Below the pieces are notes generated by a model that was given only the letters and a program-made list of their open reading frames with translations, had not been told where the DNA came from and did no database searches. Below are positions 6,312 to 38,925 of a stretch of DNA of 38,925 bases, piece after piece (the stretch's first letter is position 1; every line of letters begins with the position of its first letter). Source of the DNA: a virus; the IMG/VR virus record IMGVR_UViG_3300047476_001445, positions 1 to 38,925 of that record; one strand, 5' to 3'. Both the position numbers and the translations under genes were made by a program.

Positions 6312-7226
6312 ATGGCAACACGCTACGATATAGCACTCCGTCGGCATTGCGTCGGCCGTATTGAGCGCGACGACCTCGCCTATACCGACGACGTCATCGC
6401 CACGCTGCAGAGTGAGCTTGACGCGCGCGAAATTGCCGACGCGCTAAACATCTCCGACACTGATGTGCTGTACCACGTGCAGGAGGTGCGGCTGATGCGC
6501 CACCGAGGGCGAGTACTGCGGCCTCAAGCGTCGATGGATAGTCTGGGGCGTGCTTATCTGGGCACGCCACCGAAAGACGATTATGTGTCAGACGCTCCAG
6601 ACAGCATGCGTGACGAGGTCGAGCAGCCGATACAGATTACGGTGACGGTCGATTGGGCGGAGGCACTTAGACGTCGACAGGCTGCAGAGGCGTCCGAGTC
6701 GCAGACGCGCATCTCTGAGGCGCTCCGTCGTCGGCGAGCAGCAGAAGACGCCGAGTACCAGGCGCGCATGGCTGCAGGCGAGGCGAAATCACTGCAAAAA
6801 AAGCCCCGCAAAAAACGCGAGCCTAAAATGCGCGACGTTGACGGCAGCGAGATGGTCGTCACCCCGTACATGCGAAAGGTGATGCAGCGTATGCCGCGGG
6901 ATACCGAGTGGTACGCTGCACGTGCTGCACACACGGCAGCCCGTGAGCTGGGCGTCAGTCGAGAGACCGCCGTGCGGTGCGCCTGGGCGCTGGGCTATCA
7001 GTACGGCCGCTACTACGCCATGTATCCGATAGACCCAGAGTGGTGGGCATGTCGCACCATCAGGCAGGCCGCGGCAGATCTGCAGGCGTCATACGCGTCG
7101 GTTTGTGCACACGTGCGCAATCACCGGCTACTGGTCAGAAATTTGCCAGCGCCCAGCAAGCGCTGGCTCGAGTCGCGCGGTATGACAGTGAGGGATAATC
7201 CATGGGACGATTGGACTACAGCCTAA
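6312..7226 (+). CDS. Multi-HTH protein with two WYA-HTH repeat units
   Basis: A 304-residue protein. An N-terminal helix-turn-helix spans about 38-62 (D-A-R-E-I-A-D-A-L-N-I-S-D-T-D-V). A charged region follows with an internal duplication (E-A-L-R-R-R-Q-A-A-E at 118-127 and E-A-L-R-R-R-R-A-A-E at 137-146) and a lysine-rich linker around 160-172. Two copies of a roughly 37-residue unit come next, P-x-D-x-E-W-[YW]-A-x-R followed by a helix-turn-helix, at 196-232 and 240-276. The same unit is present once in each of the proteins at 34646 and 35383. It resembles the W-x(n)-HTH repeats found beside phage and homing endonucleases, but no nuclease motif is present. It is probably a sequence-specific DNA-binding protein; target unknown. 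Confidence 0.72.
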   Translation: MATRYDIALRRHCVGRIERDDLAYTDDVIATLQSELDAREIADALNISDTDVLYHVQEVRLMRHRGRVLRPQASMDSLGRAYLGTPPKDDYVSDAPDSMRDEVEQPIQITVTVDWAEALRRRQAAEASESQTRISEALRRRRAAEDAEYQARMAAGEAKSLQKKPRKKREPKMRDVDGSEMVVTPYMRKVMQRMPRDTEWYAARAAHTAARELGVSRETAVRCAWALGYQYGRYYAMYPIDPEWWACRTIRQAAADLQASYASVCAHVRNHRLLVRNLPAPSKRWLESRGMTVRDNPWDDWTTA

Positions 7227-12012: not shown

Positions 12013-12384
12013 ATGATGAGATATATCAACACCACACCCCACACAATTTCGGTGATGCTCGATAACCAAATTTTGGAAATCCCCACATCCGGGCACGTCA
12101 CTCGCGCACAGTTTGAGCGCTACCAAGACGGTGAGATTGACGGCATCCCCATCTGGGCACACGTCGCCGCCCCACAGCACATCATTGGGTGGCCGCCAGT
12201 CGCCGCCTACGATGCAGCAGAAACGGTTATCATCACGAGCACGCTGGTCGCCCAACTGGTTAACGCCTATCGAGGGGTGCGCGTGGTCGCGCCTGACACT
12301 GGGGTGACGGCCATGCGTGATGAGCGGGGGCAGATCGTCGCCGTCCGCGCGTTTTCGTGCTGGCCCGCTGCAGAGAGTATCTAA
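12013..12384 (+). CDS. Conserved phage protein of the NLTPH type
   Basis: A 123-residue protein (122 if the second of two adjacent ATGs is used). The order Y-I-N-T-T-P-H-T-I-S-V, I-P-T-S-G, I-x-G-W-P-P, I-I-T-S-T-L-V-A-Q-L-V, then A-P-D-T-G-V-T-A-M-R-D-E-R-G-Q-I-V-A-V-R-A-F is characteristic of a widespread small phage protein (N-L-T-P-H near the start, P-D-T-G-x-x-A-x-R-D-x-x-G-Q-I near the end) of unknown function. It is the last rightward gene before the late promoter. Confidence 0.72.
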   Translation: MMRYINTTPHTISVMLDNQILEIPTSGHVTRAQFERYQDGEIDGIPIWAHVAAPQHIIGWPPVAAYDAAETVIITSTLVAQLVNAYRGVRVVAPDTGVTAMRDERGQIVAVRAFSCWPAAESI

Positions 12385-12388
12385 ACCT

Positions 12389-12398
12389 GTGCTATAAT
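12389..12398 (+). promoter_or_regulatory. Extended -10 promoter before the late genes
   Basis: GTGCTATAAT: a perfect TATAAT (12393-12398) with TGn directly upstream and no evident -35, an arrangement typical of extended -10 or activator-dependent promoters. The same ten bases occur in the leftward promoter at 813-822. Predicted transcript start is about 12405, at the first base of a stable stem. Confidence 0.72.
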
Positions 12399-12404
12399 CC
12401 CTCT

Positions 12405-12524
12405 GTCGGTGTAATGTACTGCCGCCGACACCACACACCATAGCCGCTGCAGGTTCTGTGAACAGTCTCAGCGGCAAAGAGCCCCCGGAATTACGAGCGT
12501 TGTATCGTAAATCCGGGGGTTTTT
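12405..12524 (+). ncRNA. Structured leader RNA between late promoter and terminator
   Basis: About 120 non-coding bases lie between the promoter at 12389-12398 and the terminator at 12482-12524. Two further stems are visible: TGTCGG/CCGACA (12404-12409 with 12425-12430), and GCCGCTG/CAGCGGC (12443-12449 with 12469-12475), which encloses GTTC/GAAC (12453-12456 with 12460-12463). The position, directly before the lysis and morphogenesis genes, is that of the lambda 6S RNA or of a put-like antitermination element. The terminated RNA could also act as a free small RNA. Function is inferred from layout. Confidence 0.62.
12482..12524 (+). terminator. Strong intrinsic terminator ahead of the late operon
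   Basis: A 15-base stem with one mismatch (12482-12496 with 12505-12519), an 8-base loop and TTTTT at 12520-12524. It ends the early arm and the short late leader alike, so late transcription must bypass it. Confidence 0.9.
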
Positions 12525-12569
12525 CTGTATGATGAAAACAGCGGCAAAAATAACAGATTTGGGGGCGGC

Positions 12570-12827
12570 ATGGAACCGGGAATGATGGAGATGCGTGAGA
12601 TGCTTATCGAGCTCAAGCTCAAGCTGCAGCATCTGAGCCAGACGGTTGATCTGGCGTTGCTGCAATCGACCGAGCGTACCAATAAACTCGAGCAGCAGTT
12701 CCTTGACTATCAGCGCACCAACGATGCCAAGGTCTACGCACTTGAGCGCAATTTGTGGCTCGCCGTCGGCGCCGCGTCAGCCATCACGACCGCCCTGCCG
12801 TACATCATCAGACTATGGGAGAAGTGA
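12570..12827 (+). CDS. Lysis-cassette membrane protein, XhlA-like
   Basis: An 85-residue protein. A long amphipathic helix with heptad leucines (residues 5-60, for example L-I-E-L-K-L-K-L-Q-H-L) is followed by one hydrophobic span near 65-82 (L-W-L-A-V-G-A-A-S-A-I-T-T-A-L-P-Y-I-I). This coiled-coil plus C-terminal anchor design is that of XhlA-type holin-associated proteins. It is the first gene after the late terminator and overlaps the holin-like gene as TGATG. Confidence 0.72.
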   Translation: MEPGMMEMREMLIELKLKLQHLSQTVDLALLQSTERTNKLEQQFLDYQRTNDAKVYALERNLWLAVGAASAITTALPYIIRLWEK

Positions 12828-13087
12828 TGGAAACACTCATCATCCAGGCTATGGCCATCACGACCGTTGCCAAGGTGCTCGTGGATATGACACGCCTCGG
12901 GTATCCAAAGGCGCCGCGCTGGATCTGGCCAGTCGCCGCACTCGGGTACTCGGTCGTCGTGTCGCTGCTTATCCTGGCGGCCACGGGTGACGCAGTGACG
13001 GCGCAATCGATCGCTCAGTCCATCCTATCCGCCATCCTCGCCGCTGGTGCATCCGTCGGCGTGACCGAGCTGCAGAAGAGGGTATAG
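12827..13087 (+). CDS. Holin
   Basis: An 86-residue protein with three likely membrane segments: the N-terminal ILIIQAMAIT-type stretch of residues 3-18, W-P-V-A-A-L-G-Y-S-V-V-V-S-L-L-I-L-A-A (34-52), and A-Q-S-I-L-S-A-I-L-A-A-G-A-S-V-G (63-78), with a short charged C-terminus. Size, topology and placement immediately before an amidase identify it as the holin that permeabilises the inner membrane. Start chosen by the TGATG overlap. Confidence 0.78.
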   Translation: METLIIQAMAITTVAKVLVDMTRLGYPKAPRWIWPVAALGYSVVVSLLILAATGDAVTAQSIAQSILSAILAAGASVGVTELQKRV

Positions 13088-13088
13088 C

Positions 13089-13583
13089 ATGAGCCGATAC
13101 ACCGTGTCATCCGTCCCATCCATGAGCACCGGCGGACCGCGCACGCGGCCTATCCAGGTGATTGTGCTCCACCACACCGGCGGTCAGTCGTCGTGCGAAA
13201 ACGACATCAAATACTTGCGCCAAAATGCCGCGGGCGTCTCAATCCACGTCGTCATCGACAAGGCCGGGCACCGCACGCGCATGGTGCCCGACGAAACCGT
13301 CGCCTACCATGTGGGATACTCCAAGGTCGGCAGCCTCGGCCATCCCAACGACGTGAGCCTTGGTATCGAATTGTGCAACCGCGGGTCAAAAAACACCCCC
13401 GACCCCTACACCCACGAGCAAGTGGACTCATGCGCCGAGCAGGTCGCGACCTGGCTCAAGCAGCACCCCACCATCCAGATGATTACACCCCACGCGGGGA
13501 TTGATACCATGGGCAAATACGATCCGTATGGATTCCCATGGGATATTTTTTGGCGTCTCGTCGCTGAGCATCGACTCAGCTAG
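13089..13583 (+). CDS. Endolysin, N-acetylmuramoyl-L-alanine amidase (amidase_2)
   Basis: A 164-residue single-domain zinc amidase that cleaves the bond between MurNAc and the peptide stem. Zinc ligands expected at H28 (in V-L-H-H-T-G-G), H135 (T-P-H-A-G-I) and D145 (K-Y-D-P-Y-G-F-P-W) are all present, with E94 in G-I-E-L-C-N and H53/H74 in the usual strands. There is no signal peptide and no separate wall-binding domain, so release depends on the holin. It starts one base after the holin stop. Confidence 0.92.
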   Translation: MSRYTVSSVPSMSTGGPRTRPIQVIVLHHTGGQSSCENDIKYLRQNAAGVSIHVVIDKAGHRTRMVPDETVAYHVGYSKVGSLGHPNDVSLGIELCNRGSKNTPDPYTHEQVDSCAEQVATWLKQHPTIQMITPHAGIDTMGKYDPYGFPWDIFWRLVAEHRLS

Positions 13584-34006: not shown

Positions 34007-34506
34007 CAGACCAGGCACGCGTCAACGCCGATCTGGCGTATCAGCTCCGACAGCTCAATCAGGAAATCCCCAGCGCATGCATCACGCTCCGACGCACCGC
34101 CACCGTCGCACTCACCGCAGGTACGGGGTACAACGTGGTGTGGCAGCAGCAGACACGGGGATTCGGCATTGACTGGTCGACGACCAACATCACCATCCTG
34201 ACACCCGGATACTACTACTGGCACCTGGCGTATTCTATCCAGCTGTCAGGCCACACAACACAGTGTGAGGTGCGCGTCAACGGCGCACGCTGGATGTACG
34301 GATCGAGCAGCCTGCCACTGTTCATCGCCGCCAATACCACCTATGAGTACAACGCAAGCGGCGTTGGGTACCTGGCGGCCGGCGACGTGTGTTCAGTGTA
34401 TATCGTGGATTTCACTGCCAATGCAACACTGCAGGCCAATGCAGAGGGGACAAACGGCGCCTCGCCGATATTCCACATGATGCAAATGAGCACCGAAATA
34501 TTCTGA
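34003..34506 (+). CDS. C1q-like jelly-roll tail tip or receptor-binding protein
   Basis: A 167-residue protein starting MTDQARVNA. A short helix (residues 1-22) that could trimerise is followed by a ten-strand-like pattern with G-Y-Y-Y-W-H-L-A-Y-S-I-Q-L, C-E-V-R-V-N-G, N-T-T-Y-E-Y and a Y-L-A-A-G-D-V-C-S-V-Y-I segment, the arrangement of C1q/TNF-like heads on phage fibres. As the last late gene, it is the best candidate for host recognition. Start set by the ATGA overlap. Confidence 0.72.
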   Translation: MTDQARVNADLAYQLRQLNQEIPSACITLRRTATVALTAGTGYNVVWQQQTRGFGIDWSTTNITILTPGYYYWHLAYSIQLSGHTTQCEVRVNGARWMYGSSSLPLFIAANTTYEYNASGVGYLAAGDVCSVYIVDFTANATLQANAEGTNGASPIFHMMQMSTEIF

Positions 34507-34581
34507 TATACTACGTCTGGCGGTGCTGGTTCTATATCCGCGCAGTAGAACGTCTTGCAGCACTGCCTCCAGTACCAACAA

Positions 34582-34609
34582 AAACCCCCAGCGTTGCTGC
34601 TGGGGGTTT
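34582..34609. terminator. Bidirectional terminator between converging arms
   Basis: AAACCCCCAGC (34582-34592) pairs with GCTGGGGGTTT (34599-34609) around a 6-base loop. Read leftward the stem is followed by a run of five U; read rightward by UUU inside the stem end. It separates the late rightward genes (end 34506) from the leftward operon (end 34646). The rest of the 139-base gap shows no gene. Confidence 0.9.
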
Positions 34610-34645
34610 CCGTATCCCTTCGTAAGATGCCGCCAGTATAGCACA

Positions 34646-35386
34646 CTATTTTGTCATGGGTGCTCGCTGTCGTTTGTACGTCAAATTGGCTGTACGGATA
34701 TGACGTCGTGCGGTCAATTGCCCACAGCCGAGCGCCTCGGCAATCTCTGGTATGGTGCGCTTGGCATACCACGCGGGATCTTGTGGCCATCGAATGCCCA
34801 TAGTGTACCGCTGAATGACCCGCTGCCCTGTCTGCTCGCCGTGCTCGACGAGTACCGAGTAGGCGGACGACCTGCCGATGCCCAGCACGCGAGCGGCGAC
34901 GGTTGCCTGGCCGATCTCGATAATCCGCGCACGGATTTCTGGGGTGATGGGCGTGCGCCTCTGTGGCTCATGGTATCGGTACATGGTGCGATACATTTTG
35001 ACCGTCTTGACCTCTAAGTGCAGCGCACGGGCGACCGACTCGGCCGGCAGTGATGACGACATCAGCGCGTCCGTCGAATCCGTGCTGCGAAAAAGCCTGC
35101 GCTCGGCGCCGTGAATTTTTCGATATTTGCTCACGGTTGCGCGAGAAATCCCGTATTTGTCAGCAATTACAGCAACAGGCAGCCCGTTTTTGACGTCTGT
35201 GACAAAATCTTTTGTTTCCTGGAATTTCCGCCGACGACCGACGTCGAGCAGGCGGCGGGCCTTGCCCACAAAATCTTTCGTCACCCCGTACTGCATGGCT
35301 ATCGCCCACGTCGGCATATCGCTCGCCAGATCTTCACGGAATTTCGGGTCCATCTTACGCAATTTCTTTTTTACCTGTGATTTCAT
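34646..35386 (-). CDS. Multi-HTH DNA-binding protein A with one WYA-HTH unit
   Basis: A 246-residue protein starting MKSQVKKKL with AGGAGG before the ATG. Five helix-turn-helix-like segments are visible at about 26-46, 69-90, 113-134, 155-180 and 210-232. The last belongs to the unit W-P-Q-D-P-A-W-Y-A-K-R-T-I-P-E-I-A-E-A-L-G, shared with the proteins at 35383 and 6312. Residues 104-149 align closely with 106-151 of the neighbour (S-T-x-A-L-M-x-S-x-L), so the two arose by duplication. No nuclease or recombinase motif is present. Last gene of the leftward operon, just before the terminator. A transcription or genome-organising factor is the likeliest role. Confidence 0.75.
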   Translation of the reverse strand: MKSQVKKKLRKMDPKFREDLASDMPTWAIAMQYGVTKDFVGKARRLLDVGRRRKFQETKDFVTDVKNGLPVAVIADKYGISRATVSKYRKIHGAERRLFRSTDSTDALMSSSLPAESVARALHLEVKTVKMYRTMYRYHEPQRRTPITPEIRARIIEIGQATVAARVLGIGRSSAYSVLVEHGEQTGQRVIQRYTMGIRWPQDPAWYAKRTIPEIAEALGCGQLTARRHIRTANLTYKRQRAPMTK

Positions 35387-36132
35387 GGCTCCTCCTGCAT
35401 GCGTGGCTTCTGATAGGCCAGCGTGTATCCGCGTGTCTGGGCGTGCTTGCGTACTGATGTGTCGCAGACGCCGAGCTGCTCCGCTATCTCTCGAGCGGTC
35501 TGTCGTGCGTACCATTCCGGGTCAGTCGGCCACTCGACGTCTGGCATTTTACGCAGAATGTTCTGGCCAGTCTGGCGCTCGTATTCGTAGTACGCCTGGT
35601 AGATGGCGGTCTTGCTGGCCTTGAGTTCGCGGGCAGCGCGTTGAACGTTGCCTATCTCAACAGCACGCGCTTTCTCCGCGTCGGTCAGTGGCGACCGGCG
35701 CGATTGCGGCCAGTACCGATAGAGCGATCGGTAGGTCTTGATGGTAGCCGCACTGAGATTAAGCGCACGCCCCACGTCGGCGTGCGATAATTTCGATCGC
35801 ATCAGCGCCTCCGTCGATGCAGACATGCGGAACTCGGGCGACTGATAGCCAATTTTCTTACGCGCTCGAATCATAGTGACGGAAGTGTACTTGTATTTGG
35901 CTGTGAGATTGCGCAACGTCATACCAGCTTTGACGTCGACAATGAACTCGGGAGTGATTTTGAAATAATGCCGCGGCCTGCGCACTAGTGCGCGCATGCG
36001 ATACAGCCTCGACTGATGGATACCATACGCCGCTGCTATCTCGCGGCTTGATATTGTCGGGTCTTTGAGCGCACGTCTGAACTCTGGCCCGAGCGCCCTA
36101 ATTTGGTCTTTGATTCGAGTTTTGGTCGTCAT
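35383..36132 (-). CDS. Multi-HTH DNA-binding protein B, paralogue of protein A
   Basis: A 249-residue protein starting MTTKTRIKD; the ATG overlaps the deaminase stop (TGATG). Same five-HTH layout as its neighbour, for example S-S-R-E-I-A-A-A-Y-G-I-H-Q-S-R-L-Y, A-D-V-G-R-A-L-N-L-S-A-A-T-I-K and the terminal W-P-T-D-P-E-W-Y-A-R-Q-T-A-R-E-I-A-E-Q-L-G. Overall similarity to protein A spans the full length, so this is a tandem duplication that has diverged in its recognition helices, suggesting different DNA targets. Tight coupling with the next gene (4-base overlap) suggests equal amounts. Confidence 0.75.
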   Translation of the reverse strand: MTTKTRIKDQIRALGPEFRRALKDPTISSREIAAAYGIHQSRLYRMRALVRRPRHYFKITPEFIVDVKAGMTLRNLTAKYKYTSVTMIRARKKIGYQSPEFRMSASTEALMRSKLSHADVGRALNLSAATIKTYRSLYRYWPQSRRSPLTDAEKARAVEIGNVQRAARELKASKTAIYQAYYEYERQTGQNILRKMPDVEWPTDPEWYARQTAREIAEQLGVCDTSVRKHAQTRGYTLAYQKPRMQEEP

Positions 36133-36722
36133 CACAGCACCACCGGAAGCGTAACGCCCAGCTGGTGCTGGTATTTTCCGCCCTTCTCTGCGTAGGTTAC
36201 CGCCGGTCGATGGCCACGATAGAACACCACTTGTGCAATCCCTTCCCACGCATAGATGCGGATGGGCTGGCTCGAGACGTTGTGCAGCTCGATGGTGAGT
36301 GTGCCGGTCCATGCCGGCTCCATCGGCGTGCAATTGACGATGAGCCCACACCGCGCATAAGTTGATTTGCCCACGACAATACCGAGCACGTCGTCAGGCA
36401 TGCGAAATGTCTCGACAGACCGGGCAAGTACGAAGCGCCCAGGCCCCAGCTCCCACGTGTCGGCGCGGTGCTCGACCCAGCCGGACGGGTACGTCGTCGG
36501 GTCATCCCCGGCAACGGCAACCGTGCGGGTGAGCGGCTGTTTCGGATCGAGCACGGCACCCGCTGGCATGGCCGTCTCCACCCAGGCGTCAGACACGCGC
36601 ATGTCGTAACCGTAGCTGGTCACGCCGTAGCTGATGACGCCGGGACGGTGCTCGACGGTGGCATACGGCGTAATCATGCCGTCGTGCGCCAGCTGGTCAA
36701 TCTCGCGGTCATTCAGAATCAT
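36132..36722 (-). CDS. dcd: dCTP deaminase
   Basis: A 196-residue protein converting dCTP to dUTP (or to dUMP in bifunctional forms). Diagnostic elements: T-S-Y-G-Y-D-M-R-V (35-43), G-K-S-T-Y-A-R-C-G-L (118-127; in place of the more usual G-R-S-S-x-A-R-x-G) and T-I-E-L-H-N with E145 in the position of the catalytic Glu. The C-terminal K-Y-Q-H-Q-L-G matches the nucleotide-gating tail of the family. It supplies thymidylate precursors for phage replication or adjusts the dCTP pool, in line with the DUF1599-like gene on the other arm. It starts directly after the preceding gene's stop. Confidence 0.92.
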   Translation of the reverse strand: MILNDREIDQLAHDGMITPYATVEHRPGVISYGVTSYGYDMRVSDAWVETAMPAGAVLDPKQPLTRTVAVAGDDPTTYPSGWVEHRADTWELGPGRFVLARSVETFRMPDDVLGIVVGKSTYARCGLIVNCTPMEPAWTGTLTIELHNVSSQPIRIYAWEGIAQVVFYRGHRPAVTYAEKGGKYQHQLGVTLPVVL

Positions 36723-38379: not shown

Positions 38380-38925
38380 CATGCCACCTCTGATATCCAC
38401 GACGCAGGCGTGCGTCGACCTCCCACGACTCCACTGGTATATCCTCGCCCCGACCACGGGCCGCCTCGAGCTGCTCAAGGGCTGCTATCTCGTCGGCTGG
38501 TACCGAGTCGGTTGGCGCATACGAGACGCTCGCCCGGCCGCCCTTGCCGCGATCTGCGATTTTGCCGCCGGCCCGATAAATCATCAGCAGGTTGTCCACG
38601 TTCGTGGGATTCCACCCACGGGCCAGCACCGCCATGATACTGCGGCGCCATTGTGTCTCATCCGTCACCGTGGCGATAATCTCATCCCACAACGCCCCCA
38701 CCGGCATGCGGTTGGTCAGCTCACGATAGACCGCCAGCGGCATTAGCTGGGCGCGACTGTCGATAGGTGTGCGTGGGGTGCGTGCCCTAGCGGTGCGCGC
38801 GTCAGCGCGTATTTCTTTCTCTTTCTTTCCTTCTTTCTTTATATCTTTCTTTAGGGGTTCTGGCTCGGGCGTCAGGACGCCAGATTCAGAGGGTAGGGGG
38901 GTCAAATTTTGACCCTCCCCCGTAC
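38339..38925 (-). CDS. Lambda O-like replication initiator, C-terminal part (continues at the left end of the window)
   Basis: Continuation of the gene at 1-545. From the junction it runs through the K/E-rich stretch (K-K-E-G-K-K-E-K-E), an Arg/Ala/Thr linker, then a C-terminal domain of about 120 residues: L-A-V-Y-R-E-L-T-N-R-M-P, W-D-E-I-I-A-T-V, A-R-G-W-N-P-T-N-V-D-N-L-L. Such domains end many phage replisome organisers and are expected to bind the helicase or loader. The distal 38790-38925 is the second copy of the terminal overlap and here lacks 45 bases of the iteron array, in frame, so the encoded linker is 15 residues shorter in that copy. Confidence 0.82.
   Translation of the reverse strand, partial: TGEGQNLTPLPSESGVLTPEPEPLKKDIKKEGKKEKEIRADARTARARTPRTPIDSRAQLMPLAVYRELTNRMPVGALWDEIIATVTDETQWRRSIMAVLARGWNPTNVDNLLMIYRAGGKIADRGKGGRASVSYAPTDSVPADEIAALEQLEAARGRGEDIPVESWEVDARLRRGYQRWHDERAGRDTHRVVD
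38790..38925. repeat. Right copy of terminal overlap, with a 45-base iteron deletion
   Basis: 38790-38915 equals 1-126; 38901-38925 also equals 157-181. The two readings are compatible only if this copy has lost one 45-base span of the iteron array, two repeat units. The loss is a multiple of three and keeps the initiator frame open. Confidence 0.9.

Follow-up and report, generated by a model that had tools for sequence, protein, structure and literature searches.

A promoter-like site, a predicted short RNA and a terminator ahead of the lysis genes of an uncharacterised phage: a candidate boundary between early and late transcription

In the phage genome studied here a non-coding gap separates the early genes from the lysis genes, and the question is whether the genes that follow are reached by antitermination, as a first-pass annotation had proposed, or from a promoter of their own. 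The DNA is the 38.9 kb phage record IMGVR_UViG_3300047476_001445, and the window is this whole stretch of 38,925 nucleotides. Its ends carry an imperfect, near-identical repeat (1–133 and 38790–38922), and the genome in this record is therefore probably complete or circularly permuted. Neither the DNA nor the capsid protein matched a named phage among 50,697 phage records.

The rightward early genes end with an ORF whose stop is at 12384, and no coding sequence is found from there to the first lysis gene at 12570 (Table 1). From that point the order is XhlA-like gene, holin-like gene, amidase, methyltransferase, terminase genes and structural genes. The non-coding unit thus lies where it had been placed, directly before the lysis genes. 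Matches of helix-turn-helix (HTH) type were seen elsewhere in the window, several in two leftward genes (34646–35515 and 35383–36351, minus strand) and a single weak one in a rightward gene (6312–7226, plus strand); the three products are candidate phage transcription regulators.

Table 1. Positions of the genes and predicted elements discussed in the text
Feature	Position	Strand	Remarks
Last early gene, function not assigned	12013–12384	+	no Q-family match
P1, extended -10 TGTGCTATAAT, without recognisable -35	12388–12398	+	predicted start near 12405
Predicted non-coding RNA, about 120 nt	12405–12524	+	two modest stems (12404–12430, 12443–12475), then terminator
T, intrinsic terminator	12478–12524	+	stem 12478–12521, about -30 kcal/mol, then TTTTTCTG, tail to 12524
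P2 candidate, TATGAT -10 element	12528–12533	+	36 nt before first lysis ATG; weak alone
First lysis gene, XhlA-like small coiled-coil/membrane protein	12570–12827	+	sequence similarity
Holin-like gene	12827–13087	+	weak Pfam Hol44 match, under the Hol44 cut-off
Endolysin (amidase)	13089–13583	+	predicted from sequence
Second promoter-RNA-terminator unit	34504–34612	+	extended -10 TGATATACT lies on the last late gene's stop codon

A promoter-like site, a predicted short RNA and a terminator in the gap

The extended -10 of P1, described earlier as perfect, has the highest -10 score of the window and drops to eighth once a -35 element is scored as well, under rules that presume a sigma-70-like host polymerase. 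In shuffled sequence a perfect extended -10 arose in the stretch of P1 at a rate of 0.02; this and the other shuffle rates given here should be read as guidance and not as exact probabilities, since some of the promoter and terminator criteria were fixed with the pattern already in view. Five of the six extended -10 elements with at most one mismatch were intergenic, although intergenic DNA makes up 7% of the window (a share based on a hand-chosen gene set).

P1 and the terminator have the layout of a small-RNA gene, namely a promoter of its own and an intrinsic terminator 50–250 nt apart with no long ORF. The region 12404–12527 folds with -58.3 kcal/mol (z -6.2 against shuffles), owing largely to the terminator; without it the stems reach a z of only -2.1, and 8 of 200 shuffles folded equally well. 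The two leader stems of the first-pass annotation are present, with less stability than had been claimed for them. Rfam searches at gathering and permissive thresholds returned nothing credible. A nine-codon mini-ORF (MYCRRHHTP, 12414–12443) with a possible GGTG ribosome site lies inside the RNA; it shows no conservation and is probably due to chance.

T is, as had been noted, the strongest intrinsic terminator of the window, here taken among the hairpins that also have a T tract. Strong terminators with a promoter-like site 25–220 nt upstream were found at two places only, at 12522 and at 34580–34611, the latter on both strands. An alternative fold reached -27.9 against -58.3 kcal/mol and so does not compete with T, whose 5' arm is not bound by upstream sequence. 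Between the relatives L074 and L075 all 14 of 14 pairs of the corresponding stem are kept, with one two-sided change from G-C to C-G and two changes between G-U and G-C.

The same slot in related phages

Relatives were drawn from IMG/VR with terminase, methyltransferase and holin queries. They share 56–69% terminase identity, and a few more were recovered by methyltransferase or holin alone; the amidase query against IMG/VR gave no relatives, and an XhlA scan for further members gave no new phages. In L072, L074 and L075 the slot before the lysis genes holds P1, 98–103 nt, a hairpin and a second -10. A hairpin and second -10 occur in L071, L076, L020 and L024 and a hairpin only in L155, all five without P1 on the lysis strand. 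L073 has no gap before the lysis gene, and in L153 a TATAAT is followed by the hairpin and then the gene, so that the hairpin stands between the -10 and the gene. Overall, a promoter-like site lay downstream of the preceding stop codon and ahead of the terminator in 4 of 9 phages, against about 0.5 expected from the summed shuffle rates. The length of the RNA, 98–120 nt with the window included, is kept in L072, L074 and L075, and its sequence and stems are not. An 11-mer common to the window and L072, TCGGTGTAATG, was rejected as unspecific, as a pattern scan found it in at least 119 stretches, mostly of unrelated contigs.

According to the first-pass annotation no other good promoter follows the terminator. 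This was not confirmed, as a TATGAT stands at 12528–12533 and the relatives carry a stronger -10 at that place. The P2 of the window is the weakest of the compared set; its TG is one base too near the hexamer and its rank by sigma-70 score is only 104, and its recognition therefore rests on the relatives. With a search zone of 20–40 nt before the lysis ATG and at most one mismatch allowed, 9 of 13 phages had a -10 hexamer, located 27–36 nt ahead of the first lysis gene, against 2.4 expected, with extended -10 elements in 6 of the 13 against 0.2 (expectations being summed shuffle rates); the close pairs L074/L075, L020/L024 and L077/L081 reduce the independent counts to about 7 of 10 and about 4 of 10. 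Under the same rule P2 was absent in 4 of the 13. Between L074 and L075 the P2 block TTTGGTATACTCATCATA is identical at 18 of 18 positions, with 61% identity in the leader and 60% in the 5' UTR. The bare motif TGNTATANT was discarded as evidence, since its genome-wide count in the relatives resembles that of the reversed control; what counts is its position.

In L077, L078 and L081 (records G004 and G005) a promoter-hairpin-promoter set lies on the opposite strand and points away from the lysis genes. These inverted sets are placed before the lysis gene, at about 2700–2850 in L077 and about 1480–1600 in L081.

Antitermination or a second promoter

From the elements themselves, their strength against shuffles and their order and spacing in the relatives, we infer that P1 and P2 are used, when this may happen and what role the RNA may have. 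The explanation that we favour, at somewhat better than even confidence, is that the locus forms an early/late transcription boundary. P1 would start a short non-coding RNA that ends at T, T would in addition block read-through out of the early operon, and a separate P2 just past T would initiate the lysis and structural operon. Since P2 lies downstream of T, antitermination would not be needed, and the earlier statement that late expression requires it is not supported, in view of the conserved -10 between the terminator and the lysis gene of the relatives and its weak counterpart in the window. Counting against this boundary are the weakness of the window's P2, the four phages of 13 that lack P2, the order seen in L153 and the five relatives without P1.

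As to the short RNA, it most probably either serves as a small regulatory RNA or arises as a by-product comparable to lambda 6S RNA. In lambdoid prophages StxS and related sRNAs come from pR'-tR' or from sites close to the lysis genes, several sRNA genes can occupy the slots before lambdoid lysis genes, and terminated products of this sort can act as regulators (PMC7873438). The RNA predicted in the window likewise belongs to a promoter-terminator unit ahead of lysis genes; StxS-type sRNAs are lambdoid, whereas the phage group of the window is unrelated and its RNA is predicted from sequence.

A late switch of the lambda type, with P1 as the sole late promoter, an early stop at T and a late bypass by a phage protein loaded at P1, appears unlikely to us. 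The gene order is that of lambda, where pR', the short terminated 6S RNA and the intrinsic terminator tR' directly precede the lysis, terminase and structural genes, and no other extended -10 of the window scores better than P1, whereas P2 is weak. The relatives differ from lambda, however, in the promoter-like block conserved past the terminator, and five of them (L071, L076, L155, L020 and L024) show no P1 on the lysis strand. The window also differs from lambda in that neither a Q-family protein nor clear Q loading signals were found. Profile searches agreed with the first-pass annotation that no Q-like gene is recognisable: there was no Q-family match to PF06530, PF03589 or NCBIfam in the window, none in PHROGs (with six ORFs left out) and none to PF06323 in a search run without a positive control. 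These missing matches exclude little, because AlpA antiterminates at the alpBCDE lysis genes of Pseudomonas aeruginosa without Q homology (PMC7969949). The AlpA system resembles the window in having an intrinsic terminator between promoter and lysis genes, and it differs from it by the second promoter indicated here past the terminator; the HTH-like proteins encoded by the phage would be candidates for such a role. In Q systems the promoter must contain a Q site, and a -10-like pause element is needed as well (PMC6606751). The candidate sigma-pause element of the window, TGTAAT at 12410–12415 (about +6 to +11), agrees at 5 of 6 positions and is without the key A at the second position, and no such element was seen after the start in L074 or L075. 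A lambda-like switch would require an idle P2 in the window plus a read-through factor that went unrecognised.

Rather doubtful, too, is the view that T and P2 alone matter and that P1, a promoter-like sequence, arose by chance or is little used. The slots of L071, L076, L020 and L024, with hairpin and P2 and without P1, agree with it, as does the missing conservation of leader sequence and stems. Against it, 4 of 9 phages have P1-like sites ahead of the terminator, where about 0.5 were expected, and P1 of the window is a perfect extended -10 with a low chance rate.

It is quite improbable that the phage group carries a cassette of P1, an RNA of about 100–120 nt and a terminator abutting or overlapping P2 that acts as a lysis-delaying switch. 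In such a cassette transcription from P1 and termination over P2 would delay lysis by transcriptional interference, while the RNA bodies would be freely replaced and the orientation would be inverted in the subgroup G004/G005.

Very improbable is control by the RNA itself, either as a put-like leader that lets its own polymerase through T or as an attenuator with MYCRRHHTP as leader peptide and GGTG as its possible ribosome site: its two stem-loops, both in the first 73 nt or so, recall HK022 putL and putR (two stem-loops, about 70 nt, conserved among members; PMC9378689), which likewise stand close to a transcript's 5' end with a terminator further on, but the stems of the window have a z of only -2.1 and no Rfam match, are directly followed by the terminator and, like the mini-ORF, are not conserved. 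The relatives fold differently, which disfavours the RNA as the read-through agent that the first-pass annotation had considered, and an RNA-only switch is unlikely because nothing competes with T and the upstream stems are not kept.

A second unit behind the late genes

The gap before the lysis genes is not the only place in the window where a strong promoter-like site, a predicted short RNA and a terminator are found together. The unit at 34504–34612 likewise speaks against the claim that no other good promoter follows T. Its predicted RNA of about 95 nt (34518–34612) is structured (z -5.0) and ends in the terminator at 34580–34611. The opposite strand has TGCTATACT at 34643 with the same terminator after it, and the two-stranded unit with its shared terminator (34504–34643) sits between the convergent late and leftward genes. 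Homology between the RNAs 12405–12524 and 34518–34612 was considered and rejected, as 544 of 1000 shuffles did equally well.

A comparable unit lies behind the late genes of G001. There, at 35970–36490 (L179), a terminator hairpin runs straight into TGTGCTATACT, another hairpin comes after it, and tRNA-like sequences adjoin. Read-through would have no target in units placed after the late genes, and this favours short RNA genes as the explanation in general.

If the favoured reading of an early/late boundary is true, the control point between early and late transcription would be located for an uncharacterised phage group, and small terminated RNAs before lysis genes would be added outside the lambdoid phages. 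The case would also show that antitermination does not follow from a promoter-RNA-terminator arrangement before lysis genes alone.
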